Source: Methanomassiliicoccus sp. (GTDB lineage: Archaea; Thermoplasmatota; Thermoplasmata; Methanomassiliicoccales; Methanomassiliicoccaceae). From it: DNA of 56,309 nucleotides. This document shows, in pieces, positions 42,710 through 48,035 of the stretch. Below the pieces are notes generated by a model, which worked only from the letters and a program-made list of their open reading frames with translations, was not told the origin of the DNA and did no database searches. The number at the start of each line of letters is the position of its first letter. The first letter of the stretch is position 1. The translations under genes and the position numbers were made by a program. The stretch spans positions 1 to 56,309 of the forward strand of contig JADFDJ010000014.1 in assembly GCA_018262895.1 (NCBI GenBank). The letters are read 5' to 3'.

Positions 42710-42802
42710 GGCAAGGTCGACATACCCTTAGGGCGGTCTAGCAGATATAGTTGACATCCCATGGTTGTTTTTTTATCATCAAAGCTCTTACATCATCATG
42801 CT

Positions 42803-43255
42803 ATGGACAAGGTAACGCGCATCGGCATCTCCTTGGAGCCGGAACTGCTGAAGGAGTTCGATGAACTAGTGACAGGGAAGGGGTACACCAACAGGTCTGA
42901 GGCGATAAGGGATATCATCAGGTTCGCACTGATAGACGAACGCTGGGAGGATGAGGAAGCAGAGGTCGTGGGCACCATAACCATAGTCTACGACCACAAG
43001 AAGGGGGCGGTCCAGGAGCGCCTGATGGACATACAGCATGACCATCACGTCAACATCGCCTCCACGGTGCATCTCCATCTCAACCAGGACCAGTGCCTTG
43101 AGGTACTTCTAGTCTGGGGCAAGGTCCGCGAGGTGAAGCATCTGTCGGACGAGGTCATATCCGTAAAGGGTGTGAACTTCGGAAAGCTTACCATGACCTC
43201 AGGCTCGATGGACCTGGACCTCGACCGCGAGGTCAAACACCCCCACTACCATTAG
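42803..43255 (+). CDS. nikR: NikR-family nickel-responsive regulator
   Basis: Ribbon-helix-helix DNA-binding domain (MDKVTRIGISLEPELLKEFD and NRSEAIRDIIR) followed by the ACT-like metal-sensing domain. The nickel ligands are present: His in DHHVNIASTVHLHLNQDQC, with the cysteine at the end. At 150 aa it is slightly longer than E. coli NikR, ending in a KHPHYH tail. The ATG at 42803 gives the standard N-terminus; a longer frame upstream is rejected. It stands alone and could control any of the Ni/Co genes of the window, though this is not shown. Confidence 0.93.
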   Translation: MDKVTRIGISLEPELLKEFDELVTGKGYTNRSEAIRDIIRFALIDERWEDEEAEVVGTITIVYDHKKGAVQERLMDIQHDHHVNIASTVHLHLNQDQCLEVLLVWGKVREVKHLSDEVISVKGVNFGKLTMTSGSMDLDLDREVKHPHYH

Positions 43256-43332: not shown

Positions 43333-45795
43333 ATGAGCAGGCTCATCATTTCCGAGAAGAGCGATGCTGCCGCTAGGATCGCTACCATTCTCTCCAGGGG
43401 CAGCTCCAAGAGGACAAGCATCAACAAGGTGCCGGTCTTCAGGTTCGAGGATGAGGAAGGGCCTGTTAGCATTGTGGGCCTCAGGGGCCACATCATTGAG
43501 CTTGATTATCCCGAGGGCATGAACGACTGGCGCAAGGTCCAGCTCGCCGATCTTATAAAGGCGGAGCCGGAGAAGCGCATCACCGCCCACAATATTGTTT
43601 CCACCCTCCGTGACCTTTCCAAGGAGGTCAAGGAGGTCGTGATCGCCACTGACTTTGACAGGGAGGGAGAGCTGATAGGTCTGGAGACCGCTCGCCTCCT
43701 TGAGCTGGGTGATAAGAAGCTGAGACGCGCGCGGTTCAGCGCCTTCACCCGGCAGGAGATCGATGAGGCCTTCAGCAATCTAACGGAGCCGGACGAGAGG
43801 CTGGCAGACTCAGCGGAGTGCCGTCAGAAGATCGACCTGGCATGGGGCGCCGTCCTCACCCGGTTCATCTCCCTGGCCTCCAACCAGGGGGGCGGCAACT
43901 TCCTGTCCGTGGGCAGGGTGCAGAGCCCGACCCTCGCCCTGATCGTTGCCAGGCACAAGGCCATAGAGGGTTTCGTCCCCAAGCCTTACTGGAACGTCAG
44001 CGCCCGGTTCGAGAAGGATAAGGAGTTCCAAGGGAACCATGTCCACAACCCCTTCCATGACGAGGCCAAGGCATCGGAGGCCTTGGCCAACTGCCAGGGT
44101 GCGAGCAGGGGAAAGGTCACCAAGTACGAGAAGGTCCACAAGGACGAGTATCCTCTCCCCCCGTTCAACACCACCATGCTTCTCATGGAGGCCAACAAGC
44201 TGGGCTTCACAGCGGCCAGGGCTATGAAGATCGCTGAGGACCTGTACACCAGCGGTTATATCTCTTATCCCAGGACGGACAATACGGTGTACCCGACATC
44301 CCTGGGACTCAGGAGGATACTGGAAAAGCTGAGGGAGTCCGAGGACCTGAGGAAGGACGCCGAGGAGCTCCTGACCCAGGAGCACATCCGGCCCTCCCGT
44401 GGGAAGGTCCAGACCACCGATCACCCGCCAATATATCCCACTGAAGGTGCCACAAGCAAGCAGCTCAAGGGGGAGAAGTGGGCGATCTATGAGCTTGTGG
44501 CCCGGCGCTTCATGGCCACCGTGGCCCCCCCAGCAAAGGCCGAGCTGTCCAACGCTTCCATAGACGTCAAAGGGGAGATCTTCGAGTCCAAGGGGTACAA
44601 GCTCCTGTCACCCGGCTGGAAGAAATACTATCCGTACTTCAAGGTTAACGAGATCGACCTTCCCGAGCTGAAGGCCGGCGAGGAGATCGACGTGCTGGGG
44701 ACATCCTCGGAGAAGAAGATGACCCAGCCACCGGTCCGCTACTCCCAGGGAAGCCTGATCCAGGAGATGGAGCGCCTTGCCCTGGGGACGAAGTCCACGC
44801 GCCACGACATAATCCAGAAGCTTTACGATCGCAAGTACGTGGAGGGCAACGACCTGATACCAACGGCCAGCGGTGTCGCGGTGGCCGAGGCCCTGATAAA
44901 ACATGCCCAGATCGTCACCGATCCCAAGATGACCGCTCACCTGGAAAGGGATATGGACGAGATCGCCAACGGGAAGAGCGAGCTGGCGGAGGTCGTGGAG
45001 GAATCCCAGGATATGCTGTCGGACATCCTGGATGCACTGGAGAGGCACCGGGAGCAGATAGGGGAGGAGATCCGCAAGGCCATTGAGGAGCAGCACTACA
45101 TCGGTAAGTGTCCGGACTGCGGCTCCGACCTCAAGGTCATCAGAGGCAAGTTCGGCAAACCTTTCGTGGGCTGCTCCAAGTACCCGGAGTGCAAGCGCAT
45201 TTATCCATACCCGCCCTCCGCATTGGTGCAGGCTACGGAGGAGGTGTGCCCGGAGTGCAAGGCACCCCGTGTCAGGGTCGTAAGGAAGGGTCAGTCACCG
45301 CAGGTGCACTGCATAGATCCGACCTGCGAGAGCAACCGCGAGAGGAACACCGTAGGCTCCTGCCCCAAGTGCGGAAAGGACCTCCGGATCATATTCTCCC
45401 GTGCGGGGAAGAGGTTCCTCGGCTGCTCTGGCTATCCTGACTGCAAGCAGACGTACCCGCTTCCCCAGTACGGGCAGTTCGCCGCCACCGGGGAGAGGTG
45501 CGAGTCCTGCGGCGCTCCCATGCTTCAGATCTGGATGAGAGGGCAGTCTTGGAAGTCCTGCGTGGACATGGACTGTCCCTCCAAGAAGAAGAACGGGGAG
45601 GCGAAGCCCAAGAAGGCACTGGCGAAAAAGGCCCCGACCAAAAAGAAGGTAAAGGCGAATGGGTCTGCCGAGGAGGAGGGTTCTCCAGCCCCGGCCAAGA
45701 AGGCCAAGGCTTCGCCCGCGAAGAAAGCTACCAAGAAGGCTACAGCGAAGAAGGCTTCCACCAAGAGGACCAAGCCCGCTCCGGCCACCCCTTGA
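43333..45795 (+). CDS. topA: DNA topoisomerase I (type IA), lysine-rich tail
   Basis: Relaxes negative supercoils by single-strand passage. The TOPRIM domain starts at residue 1 (ISEKSDAAARI) and has DFDREGELIG near 114. The active-site tyrosine is Y312 in SYPRTD. Four zinc-ribbon-like modules follow at about 592-745: CPDC..CSKYPEC, CPEC..CIDPTC, CPKC..CSGYPDC and CESC..CVDMDC. The last 65 residues are lysine- and alanine-rich (repeats of AKKA and PAKK type), like histone H1 tails. At 820 aa it is longer than usual because of this tail. The TATA-like element near 43298-43307 precedes it. Confidence 0.95.
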   Translation: MSRLIISEKSDAAARIATILSRGSSKRTSINKVPVFRFEDEEGPVSIVGLRGHIIELDYPEGMNDWRKVQLADLIKAEPEKRITAHNIVSTLRDLSKEVKEVVIATDFDREGELIGLETARLLELGDKKLRRARFSAFTRQEIDEAFSNLTEPDERLADSAECRQKIDLAWGAVLTRFISLASNQGGGNFLSVGRVQSPTLALIVARHKAIEGFVPKPYWNVSARFEKDKEFQGNHVHNPFHDEAKASEALANCQGASRGKVTKYEKVHKDEYPLPPFNTTMLLMEANKLGFTAARAMKIAEDLYTSGYISYPRTDNTVYPTSLGLRRILEKLRESEDLRKDAEELLTQEHIRPSRGKVQTTDHPPIYPTEGATSKQLKGEKWAIYELVARRFMATVAPPAKAELSNASIDVKGEIFESKGYKLLSPGWKKYYPYFKVNEIDLPELKAGEEIDVLGTSSEKKMTQPPVRYSQGSLIQEMERLALGTKSTRHDIIQKLYDRKYVEGNDLIPTASGVAVAEALIKHAQIVTDPKMTAHLERDMDEIANGKSELAEVVEESQDMLSDILDALERHREQIGEEIRKAIEEQHYIGKCPDCGSDLKVIRGKFGKPFVGCSKYPECKRIYPYPPSALVQATEEVCPECKAPRVRVVRKGQSPQVHCIDPTCESNRERNTVGSCPKCGKDLRIIFSRAGKRFLGCSGYPDCKQTYPLPQYGQFAATGERCESCGAPMLQIWMRGQSWKSCVDMDCPSKKKNGEAKPKKALAKKAPTKKKVKANGSAEEEGSPAPAKKAKASPAKKATKKATAKKASTKRTKPAPATP

Positions 45796-45837: not shown

Positions 45838-46278
45838 TTAATGATCGTGGGCGTGGTGCTCGTGGTGTTGGCCACCGCCCTGGTGGTCCCCATCAAGCTC
45901 GGTTAGATGGATGTGCGCCCCCGGGATGTCCAGCTCTTGCTGCGTCGTCCGCTTTACTATCTCCTCAACCATGTCCCTTGAAAGGCCGTAGAGGAGCACA
46001 TTGAGGACGATCTCGATCTCCTCTATCCCATCTTCCAGGCCTCCCCTCGACCGGGGTGCGCCCCTCTCGTCGACCACGCTCACGGCCAGAAAACCATGGT
46101 CGGCGGTGCTGGCGAGGCATTTTATGTGACCGATGAGGGTGGCACCTGCGGCCATGCACTCCTTGGCGATTGTTGAAAGGAGCGATTCGATACGCGAATG
46201 CAGCATGGCTGAGAGGACGCTCTCTTGGAGATGGACCTCCATCTTCACGGCGTAGGCCGAGAAGTCGGAGGTTATCAT
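45838..46278 (-). CDS. His-tailed partner protein of the G3E GTPase
   Basis: A 146-residue protein that I do not recognise. It ends in a histidine-rich tail (QHHEHHAHDH) able to bind Ni, Zn or Co. Its start overlaps the stop of the G3E GTPase gene as ATGA, so both are made together. A plausible role is to hold metal for, or receive it from, the GTPase. Confidence 0.7.
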   Translation of the reverse strand: MITSDFSAYAVKMEVHLQESVLSAMLHSRIESLLSTIAKECMAAGATLIGHIKCLASTADHGFLAVSVVDERGAPRSRGGLEDGIEEIEIVLNVLLYGLSRDMVEEIVKRTTQQELDIPGAHIHLTELDGDHQGGGQHHEHHAHDH

Positions 46279-46874
46279 CGGCCGATCACCGCTTCCACGA
46301 ACCTTTCGACGTTCGTTCCCTGGACCGCGGATATGGGTATGATCGGGACCTCGGCGTTGATGGTGCGCAGGACGGCCTCCATGCGCCTCAGCTCCGCCTC
46401 CGGCACAGTGTCCATCTTGTTGAGCATTATTATGTCGGCCGCTCTGACCTGAGCGGTCATCGGTGGCCCCAGAGCCTTCAATATGACGTCGAAGCGCGAG
46501 GCGTCGACCACCACGGCCGACTGGAACCTGATGGGCCCGTTCCGCTTATAGTGCTCTAGAACCTTTATTATGGCCTGAGGATCGGCGACCCCGGTGGGCT
46601 CGACCAATATCATGTCCGGTCGTAACTTCTCCTCGATATCCTTGACCGTCTGCAGGAGGTCCGGTCCCAGAGTGCAGCACACGCAGCCGCTTGCAAGCTC
46701 CATGACCTCGAGGCCATATTTGGTCATTAGGCTTCCATCGATCCCCACGGTACCGAAGTCGTTCACGATGACCACGACCTTGCGATCGGTCCGATCGATC
46801 AAGGACCCGATGACCGACAGGACCAAGGTGGTCTTGCCAGAACCAAGAAAACCAGCCACGATCAAAATGTCCAT
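46275..46874 (-). CDS. G3E-family (COG0523/CobW-like) metal-chaperone GTPase
   Basis: A 199-residue GTPase: P-loop GFLGSGKTT at 8-16, a metal-site CVCC motif at residues 64-67 (of the GCxCC type), VEPTGVADP near 92, and NKMD near 150. It lacks the C-terminal CobW_C domain that is present in full-size members (about 300-400 aa), so it is a short form. COG0523 proteins deliver metals (Zn, Co, Ni, Fe) to target enzymes. The inverted repeat just upstream suggests regulated expression. A His-tailed gene follows directly. Confidence 0.88.
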   Translation of the reverse strand: MDILIVAGFLGSGKTTLVLSVIGSLIDRTDRKVVVIVNDFGTVGIDGSLMTKYGLEVMELASGCVCCTLGPDLLQTVKDIEEKLRPDMILVEPTGVADPQAIIKVLEHYKRNGPIRFQSAVVVDASRFDVILKALGPPMTAQVRAADIIMLNKMDTVPEAELRRMEAVLRTINAEVPIIPISAVQGTNVERFVEAVIGR

Positions 46875-46879
46875 GAAAT

Positions 46880-46894
46880 GTACCTGCGCGGTAC
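46880..46894. promoter_or_regulatory. Inverted repeat near the predicted start of the G3E GTPase operon
   Basis: GTACC-TGCGC-GGTAC, perfect 5-bp arms, between a minus-strand TATA-like TTTTAATA (about 46909-46918) and the start codon at 46874. AAAT and ATTT outside the arms extend the symmetry loosely. A metal-responsive operator is likely but no regulator is assigned. Confidence 0.45.
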
Positions 46895-46976
46895 GATTTC
46901 CTGAAGCGTATTAAAAGCCTTTGAACAACACGTCAAATAGGGTGCCCTTCCCAGCTTTGCCGTCCTACACCTTCAG

Positions 46977-47186
46977 CTATATGGATATGCATCCAGAGCT
47001 CTCTTCGTCCAATCCAAGGAAATGCCTCTCCATGGATTCCTTCTCCAATGCTATCCGACGGTTCCGGCAGTTGACGCACTCCACCCTCTTGCCGAGCAGT
47101 CTCTTCCTGATGACCGTCTCCGTATCCAGATCTACCAGCTCGCCGCAGCCGCACAGGGCCTTCTTCATAGAGTTCGGACCAAACAT
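46977..47186 (-). CDS. Small zinc-ribbon-like protein
   Basis: About 69 residues from ATG 47186; the longer frame to 47228 is less likely. The sequence holds LCGCGEL and VECVNC, two cysteine pairs spaced like a zinc ribbon, with basic flanks and an acidic end. An internal ATG is 7 residues later. Ends at TAG. The function is unknown. An inverted repeat (47278-47294) lies upstream. Confidence 0.5.
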   Translation of the reverse strand: MFGPNSMKKALCGCGELVDLDTETVIRKRLLGKRVECVNCRNRRIALEKESMERHFLGLDEESSGCISI

Positions 47187-47277
47187 GAGTGATACCTCAG
47201 CAATGCTTGATCCCATCGGACTCAGCAACGGTCACCCCCATCCCTGTTCTTGCGAACGTGCCGGTACCTTGTTGATC

Positions 47278-47603: not shown

Positions 47604-48035
47604 CTAAGATTTTTTTACCGGATAAATCTGGACGTCGACCGGGATCCCCGCCCGTACGCTCTGCGTGACGATGCAGAAATCCTCGAAGACCTGTCTGCAG
47701 CGGTCAAAGCGGGCTGCGTCCTCGAACTGAGGGAACATGTTCACCGACATGTGCGTTATCCTGAACCGTCCGTGCTCGTTCCTCTCCAATTTCGCGGACA
47801 CCTCGGCGGAGATGTTGGGGACCTCCGCATGCGATTTTTCCATGCAGAACACCAGGGAAGCGCAAAGGCAGTTGCCTACCGCGGCCGCCAGTAGCTTCCC
47901 GGCATTGGGGTACTCCCCCTTACCAAGAGGCTCAGGCTCGTCGGTGTAGATATCCTCGATCTTGTTGTTGAAGGACACTCGGAACTTGTATTCCTCGACC
48001 CTGCAGACCCGGGTGTGGAACTCGCCCCCTTCCAT
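47604..48035 (-). CDS. OsmC-family peroxiredoxin-like protein
   Basis: A 143-residue OsmC/Ohr superfamily protein that reduces organic peroxides with two cysteines. The first is in the helix stretch AAAVGNCLCASLVF; the second is in EDFCIVTQSV near residue 120. It has additional nearby cysteines. The start overlaps the nicotinate phosphoribosyltransferase stop (TAATG). The stop codon is TAG. Confidence 0.85.
   Translation of the reverse strand: MEGGEFHTRVCRVEEYKFRVSFNNKIEDIYTDEPEPLGKGEYPNAGKLLAAAVGNCLCASLVFCMEKSHAEVPNISAEVSAKLERNEHGRFRITHMSVNMFPQFEDAARFDRCRQVFEDFCIVTQSVRAGIPVDVQIYPVKKS

Follow-up and report, generated by a model that had tools for sequence, protein, structure and literature searches.

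The window analysed here, a stretch of 56,309 nucleotides from Methanomassiliicoccus sp., encodes a short GTPase of the COG0523/G3E group followed directly by a small partner protein. We propose, with moderate confidence, that the two make up a two-component metallochaperone whose family most likely serves the zinc-dependent methyltransferases of corrinoid methyl-transfer systems. The two genes overlap and are found together in relatives, both proteins carry conserved motifs and fall into shared clades, and the paralogues of the pair have recurrent neighbourhoods. The original prediction had likened the pair to a small metal-delivery unit. Three things support this view: a GTPase of the cobW/CxCC kind, pairing that is near-obligate, and a His-rich tail in some copies. 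It had called the client unknown; the sister pairs now point to zinc/corrinoid methyltransferases, even if none is adjacent to the window copy. The features of the pair are as follows.

46275..46874, minus strand: COG0523/G3E GTPase with the cobW domain only, 199 aa, ATG start (open reading frame and Pfam; orthologues found)
46674..46685, minus strand: CVCC (CxCC, in GCVCC), putative metal motif of the GTPase, residues 64-67 (sequence and alignment)
45838..46278, minus strand: partner protein, 146 aa (open reading frame; without a Pfam or NCBIfam family)
45898..46266, minus strand: conserved partner core, approximately residues 5-127, predicted ferredoxin-like alpha+beta domain (alignments, AlphaFold2 and fold searches)
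46120..46134, minus strand: IGHIK motif, partner residues 49-53 (I49, G50, H51 and K53 invariant in alignments A3 and A5)
45841..45888, minus strand: His-rich tail, partner residues 131-146, predicted to be disordered, variable among relatives (AlphaFold2 and 86-copy comparison)

The window protein has all the features by which a COG0523/G3E GTPase is recognised. The cobW domain (PF02492) spans residues 3-179 (E 6.8e-45, 153.3 bits against a cut-off of 20.7), the translation reads GFLGSGKTT at the P-loop and NKMD as its [N/S/T]KxD motif, and Cys 64, 66 and 67 of the CxCC motif are unchanged in 31/31 aligned GTPases. What it lacks is the C-terminal CobW_C domain of the canonical two-domain CobW/ZigA type: CobW_C (PF07683) was absent from the 16 Pfam families listed at E up to 1, in which the families other than cobW were weak P-loop matches. 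Pfam and sequence thus confirm what had been described as a short G3E GTPase with CVCC and without CobW_C. No NCBIfam model lay above its cut-off among the best 25 of 31 matches, and the closest sequence match in the PDB was YjiA (1nij, E 1.2e-17).

In keeping with the predicted translational coupling, the start codon of the partner shares 4 nt (ATGA) with the GTPase stop, and its C-terminal end is, as predicted, QHHEHHAHDH (histidine-rich ending GGGQHHEHHAHDH). By a crude density rule (at least 4 His in 20 residues), the His-rich end was C-terminal in 25 of 86 partner copies, N-terminal in 11 and found at neither end in 50; with profile-set boundaries, these numbers were 23, 12 and 51. GHxK, on the other hand, is present in 86/86 partner ORFs. 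Since the tail is absent in about 50 of the 86 copies and the GHxK core is universal, it is the core that defines the partner family; the "His-tailed partner" of the original prediction describes the window copy well but not most of its relatives. In L063, L065, L104 and other f2 loci, the His-rich stretch is N-terminal and the core unchanged, the extension having switched ends. Y9, A10, C41, G45, L48, I49, G50, H51, K53, S67 and G98 were invariant across 27 partner sequences, and M1, G45, I49, G50, H51, K53 and G98 across 32.

An AlphaFold2 model of the partner (27 sequences, mean pLDDT 87) predicts a core of the order beta-alpha-beta-beta-beta-beta-alpha-beta, with pLDDT below 50 at residues 131-146, the His tail. 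Fold searches (Foldseek/VIA) returned generic ferredoxin-like matches, the top Z scores (8.8, 8.2 and 8.1) all belonging to designed proteins. Foldseek placed YjiA (1nij) at rank 43 (E 0.0099) amid many ferredoxin-like folds, and its absence from the 50 entries listed in a further fold search excludes nothing. At E 0.01, none of 27 partner members matched a Pfam family, UreE, HypA and CobW_C included. NCBIfam gave only stray matches for the same 27 members, two to FabI and one to UreE (E 0.0017), the latter probably arising through the His tail, and had no model above its cut-off for the window partner. The partner profile found two PDB sequences only, at E 0.85 and 0.99, which are chance matches. 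We also considered that the partner might be a detached CobW_C domain; its sequence does not support this, hhalign against 12 CobW_C domains giving a probability of 1.7% (local) or 0.2% (global), and the generic ferredoxin-like fold of the model speaks neither for it nor against it.

The pairing was assessed in 90 loci: the window, L004, L005, L039-L065 and 60 wider regions around further copies, the latter picked by partner match and not by gene context. These loci held 86 partner and 89 GTPase ORFs, and a GTPase lay directly upstream of the partner in 84 of the 86. The two unpaired partner ORFs are a solo copy in the window's own genome (L004) and L064, where the contig end cuts the locus. 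The pairing is real and far beyond chance; the copies are not independent, since many descend from few duplications, some species of L039-L061 recur among L010-L038, and L104 is identical in sequence to L063. A partner occurring mostly without the GTPase had been named as grounds for abandoning the original prediction, and the opposite was found. Five loci with a GTPase and no partner ORF at E 1e-5 (L124, L126, L128, L129 and L130) were excluded from all counts; a six-frame search places a weaker partner match at each, and L124, L126 and L130 adjoin MtaB, MtaC and RACo. No ORF in the 90 loci was matched by both profiles, as a GTPase-partner fusion would be. The intergenic gap ranged from -14 to +1 nt in all 30 window-type pairs measured and was -4 in 18 of them. 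In one relative (G009), a tandem GTPase-partner-GTPase-partner (L131:4842-6967) combines a window-type pair with one of mta type.

Nearly all partner copies come from one order of methane-forming archaea. The partner was present in 46 of 61 genomes (60 relatives and the own genome), and among the best 30 of these 46, all 29 besides the window have the GTPase directly upstream. A scan of named genomes yielded 27 partner loci, 26 archaeal and one from an Anaerolineae bacterium; the titles of the archaeal loci name Methanomassiliicoccales, Methanomassiliicoccus, Thermoplasmata/Thermoplasmatota or 'Euryarchaeota' archaea. In a phylum-wide sample, 24 of 292 genomes had the partner (E 1e-5), all of the Methanomassiliicoccales-type order and the own genome included. 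Among Chloroflexota, it was found in 2/301 genomes, one being the source genome of the search, and viral contigs held no relative of it.

The GTPase tree (84 rows) contains a window-type clade, an mta-linked clade, and a corrinoid-protein/URO-D clade within which a RACo/URO-D clade is nested. The partner tree (86 rows) recovers these main groups too, from fewer columns and with more forks left open; long branches make the details of both trees unsure. Because the main clades coincide, the simplest reading is that GTPase and partner were duplicated as one unit. In the partner tree, seven of the 62 partner ORFs outside the window-type set join the window type (L097, L119, L123, L125, L127, L004 and L131 at 5438), giving 31 window-like copies and 55 non-window-type pairs. 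The first five of these are missing from the GTPase tree, for which the P-loop filter required GFLG, and their window-like placing rests on the partner tree and synteny. The solo partner L004 forms a long branch inside the window-type clade. The Anaerolineae pair L062, counted among the 55, is placed beside the window clade by both trees; its neighbours are a corrinoid protein and a URO-D protein.

COG0523 GTPases number only two in the own genome, and both have a partner gene directly behind them. PF02492 had four matches there: the window GTPase, the mta-linked GTPase, a HypB-like protein of 218 aa without CxCC (named from its sequence) and an FtsY-like protein, which we discarded as a COG0523 GTPase, judging it a false match from its sequence. 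CobW_C was not found in this genome at E 0.001 and occurs in 1 of the 61 genomes of the order. The paralogous pair has the order GTPase-partner-RACo and is convergent with mtaB and mtaC. The solo partner paralogue (L004:5287-5775; C22:106286), which has neither GTPase nor His tail, precedes a Peripla_BP_2/FecCD transporter and a SAM methyltransferase, and is possibly a core domain working with an importer.

The mta-linked paralogue is one of many sister pairs in such company. Methyltransferase-system genes, by which we mean MtaB, MtaC, RACo, a corrinoid protein or a URO-D-type methyltransferase, lie within 5 kb of 45 of the 55 non-window-type pairs (44/54 without L062), and five of the ten unlinked pairs are in loci shorter than 10 kb, where neighbours may be cut off. 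MtaB or a URO-D-type methyltransferase accompanies 44 of the 45 linked pairs, a corrinoid protein 34 and RACo 17. By class, 26 pairs have a corrinoid protein with the URO-D type, 8 have MtaB, MtaC and RACo, and 7 have RACo with the URO-D type; the small classes are the URO-D type alone (2), RACo alone (1) and MtaB with RACo (1). Corrinoid proteins are thus near 34 of all 55 non-window-type pairs. The background of this marker is low: B12-binding_2 occurs at 8 places in the 2.34-Mb own genome, so that a random 10-kb stretch holds one in approximately 3-4% of cases, the expectation being approximately 6% in the richest genomes listed. In two f2 genomes (L117 and L121), the pair is preceded by a small methyltransferase-like gene, assigned by eye, with no corrinoid genes nearby.

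The neighbouring URO-D proteins share a further trait. Of the 33 that exceed 300 aa, 31 have HxC and, 60-99 residues later, a further Cys, those of L152 and the Anaerolineae pair L062 being the exceptions; the motif was also seen in 8/114 other ORFs of 300-480 aa, a mechanical set that may include a few URO-D ORFs. We take this motif to be the zinc site of MtaA/MtbA-type enzymes. Because most sister copies adjoin them, the methyltransferases are the likely metal recipients. The metal is probably zinc, because no neighbour of the specialised pairs is more constant than a zinc-type methyltransferase (44/45) and because zinc is what YeiR and YjiA, in contrast to CobW, predominantly bind (PMC7895991).

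However, a corrinoid protein or RACo is often nearby too, and the client could lie on the corrinoid side. The pair would then resemble MeaB, a cobalamin chaperone that also belongs to the G3E family (PMC9164220), and would gate or load the corrinoid cofactor or serve the RACo-driven reactivation of corrinoid proteins, its metal motif being secondary. The frequency of corrinoid proteins (34/45) and RACo (17/45) within 5 kb of the linked pairs is consistent with such a factor, as is the order GTPase-partner-RACo in the own genome. We nevertheless consider it unlikely: all 31 aligned GTPases keep CxCC, a hallmark of metal-binding COG0523 proteins (PMC9164220), neither corrinoid protein nor RACo is as constant a neighbour as the zinc-type methyltransferase, and the His-rich tails, where present, suit metal ions better than corrinoids.

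The window copy lives in different surroundings, of which two genes matter here.

43333..45795, plus strand: DNA topoisomerase I (topA) with zinc ribbons, assigned by eye (convergent with the pair; conserved block)
42761..43255, plus strand: NikR nickel regulator, its C-terminal end containing His (HPHYH) (Pfam/NCBIfam; conserved block)

Both belong to a block that also comprises asparagine-synthase-like, folC, OsmC, nicotinate-phosphoribosyltransferase-like, enolase, RFC and response regulator genes. Each of these clusters recurs in 9 to 18 of 30 window-type loci, many of them on short contigs and several of the names given by eye; nikR is found in 11, the window among them. In five f2 loci, a window-like pair is embedded in these same surroundings. 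Only 3/31 window-like copies (3/24 in the first window-type set) have methyltransferase-system genes within 5 kb. Neighbours of the window-type pairs L046, L047 and L048 include RACo, a corrinoid protein, a radical SAM/SPASM gene and a gene that by eye is aldehyde-ferredoxin-oxidoreductase-like. Upstream of the window GTPase lies an 83-aa Cys-rich ORF (46977-47228, minus strand; CGCGE...CVNCRNRR), and small zinc-ribbon-like ORFs resembling it by eye were seen in nine relatives. The OsmC-like protein of the block (47604-48035, minus strand) is weakly like an OsmC-related selenoprotein model.

With NikR 2.6 kb beyond the partner and nikR in 11/30 loci, the pair might be thought to handle nickel under NikR control, be it for the F430 of methyl-CoM reductase, hydrogenase or other nickel enzymes. 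This is improbable in our view. Although NikR would fit nickel, it is part of the syntenic block: topA separates nikR from the pair, nikR is on the other strand, and the presence of enolase, RFC and folC in the same block means that nikR is not a specific link. In addition, the genome has a separate HypB-like protein, and the sister pairs adjoin zinc/corrinoid methyltransferases.

The same locus bears on whether the window-type pair is a general zinc allocator, like ZNG1 or ZigA, for housekeeping zinc proteins, with only the paralogues specialised for methyltransferases. We regard this as possible, if somewhat doubtful. A housekeeping locus common to the window-type loci and the five f2 loci would suit such an allocator, as would the Cys-rich ribbons, seen by eye, that the adjacent topA and nicotinate-phosphoribosyltransferase-like genes encode. 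However, synteny by itself names no client, RACo or a corrinoid protein lies near L046, L047 and L048 although these are of window type, and the Anaerolineae pair, which sits beside the window clade in both trees, adjoins corrinoid and URO-D proteins.

The original prediction had also placed a symmetric operator candidate at the start of the GTPase gene. Two elements of this leader can be located.

46880..46894, no strand: GTACC-N5-GGTAC inverted repeat, 6-20 nt upstream of the GTPase ATG
46909..46916, minus strand: TTTTAATA, TATA-box-like (read by eye)

The repeat is present where it had been reported, but a role as operator is not supported. Comparing 31 leaders (the window, L010-L038 and the paralogue L005), we found the repeat exact in 3, those of the window and its two closest relatives (L010 and L011), where it has the same position; the other 28 all have at least 3 mismatches. 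Conservation, which the original prediction had put forward as a check, therefore argues against an operator. A scan of the 2.34-Mb genome found the pattern once and the reversed control 4 times, and 13.7% of base shuffles of the window's 40-nt leader yield a perfect 5-bp dyad whose arms are 3-8 nt apart. The right arm overlaps a ribosome-binding-like element (AGGT/GGTG/GGTA) that lies within 18 nt of the start in 25/31 leaders and is probably the Shine-Dalgarno sequence. In favour of an operator tuning the pair, besides the exact repeat in these three leaders, short dyads near the start are mildly over-represented (8/31 leaders against a shuffle mean of 3.5; 16/1000 shuffles were as high). 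We see only a very slim chance that the repeat is a true operator. From the position of the TATA-like TTTTAATA, the transcription start would fall inside the inverted repeat.

In the metallochaperone that we favour, the GTPase would bind GTP, and a metal at its CxCC, and the separate ferredoxin-like partner would fill the role of the missing C-terminal client/metal domain, holding the metal and/or recognising the client in trans. That the partner does the work of CobW_C is suggested by analogy, the two having no profile match (hhalign 1.7%). The His-rich tail, where present, may collect or buffer the metal, and GTP hydrolysis would release it into the apo-enzyme. We infer complex formation and the GTP cycle, as we do the metal and the clients; for the family, the latter would be zinc methyltransferases, namely MtaB and the URO-D type with the HxC...C motif. 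The window copy would be a housekeeping member, with a fixed locus beside topA, and would probably supply the same class of zinc enzymes, or zinc generally, from a distance. Several findings speak against this model: the tail, the most obvious metal-binding part, is missing in 50 or 51 of 86 copies, few window-like pairs (3/31) have methyltransferase-system genes nearby, and the URO-D neighbour of the Anaerolineae pair has no HxC...C motif. More tentatively, the family could be a trans-acting COG0523 system in which a near-obligate partner replaces the fused domain, each duplicated cassette is tied to a single zinc/corrinoid methyltransferase system, and the topA-locus cassette is the general metal allocator of the order.

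According to a review, the clients of many COG0523 proteins are unknown (PMC9164220). Among the abstracts and passages searched, we found none that explains how the methyltransferases at the entry to methylotrophic methanogenesis obtain their zinc, none that describes the partner family, and no paper joining Methanomassiliicoccus and CobW. The near-obligate partner and the cassettes duplicated beside different methyltransferase systems provide named protein pairs and named candidate clients, which makes the proposal directly testable.

The link between the GTPase and methyltransferases was already published in 2009: archaeal COG0523 subfamily 13 clusters with corrinoid-dependent methyltransferases, namely mtaA and mtaB, both Zn-dependent, and with ramM (Haas et al. 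2009, PMC2770081). Of our non-window-type pairs, 45/55 have such a neighbourhood, by which they may be likened to subfamily 13. A partner protein goes unmentioned in the description of that subfamily (PMC2770081) and is apparently undescribed in the literature searched, and the window copy differs in not lying next to methyltransferases. With CobW, ZigA and YjiA, the window GTPase shares the GTPase domain and CxCC; however, it has no CobW_C, and its second protein is encoded by a separate gene without homology to CobW_C detectable by profile. The NF041053 model of a CobW-related selenoprotein (195 positions) matches GTPase residues 1-195, but at 95.1 bits, far below its curated cut-off of 180 bits, and the window gene has no in-frame TGA. 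Among systems of similar design, the HypA-HypB pair delivers nickel. In UreE-UreG and SlyD-HypB, too, a metal-binding and sometimes His-rich partner hands nickel to a G3E GTPase without an extra C-terminal domain, with His stretches that may be present or absent and differ in place (PMC2770081), much as they do here. Unlike these nickel systems, the pair described here combines a partner outside the UreE and HypA Pfam families with a GTPase that has CxCC, and its client would be a zinc/corrinoid methyltransferase rather than a nickel enzyme.
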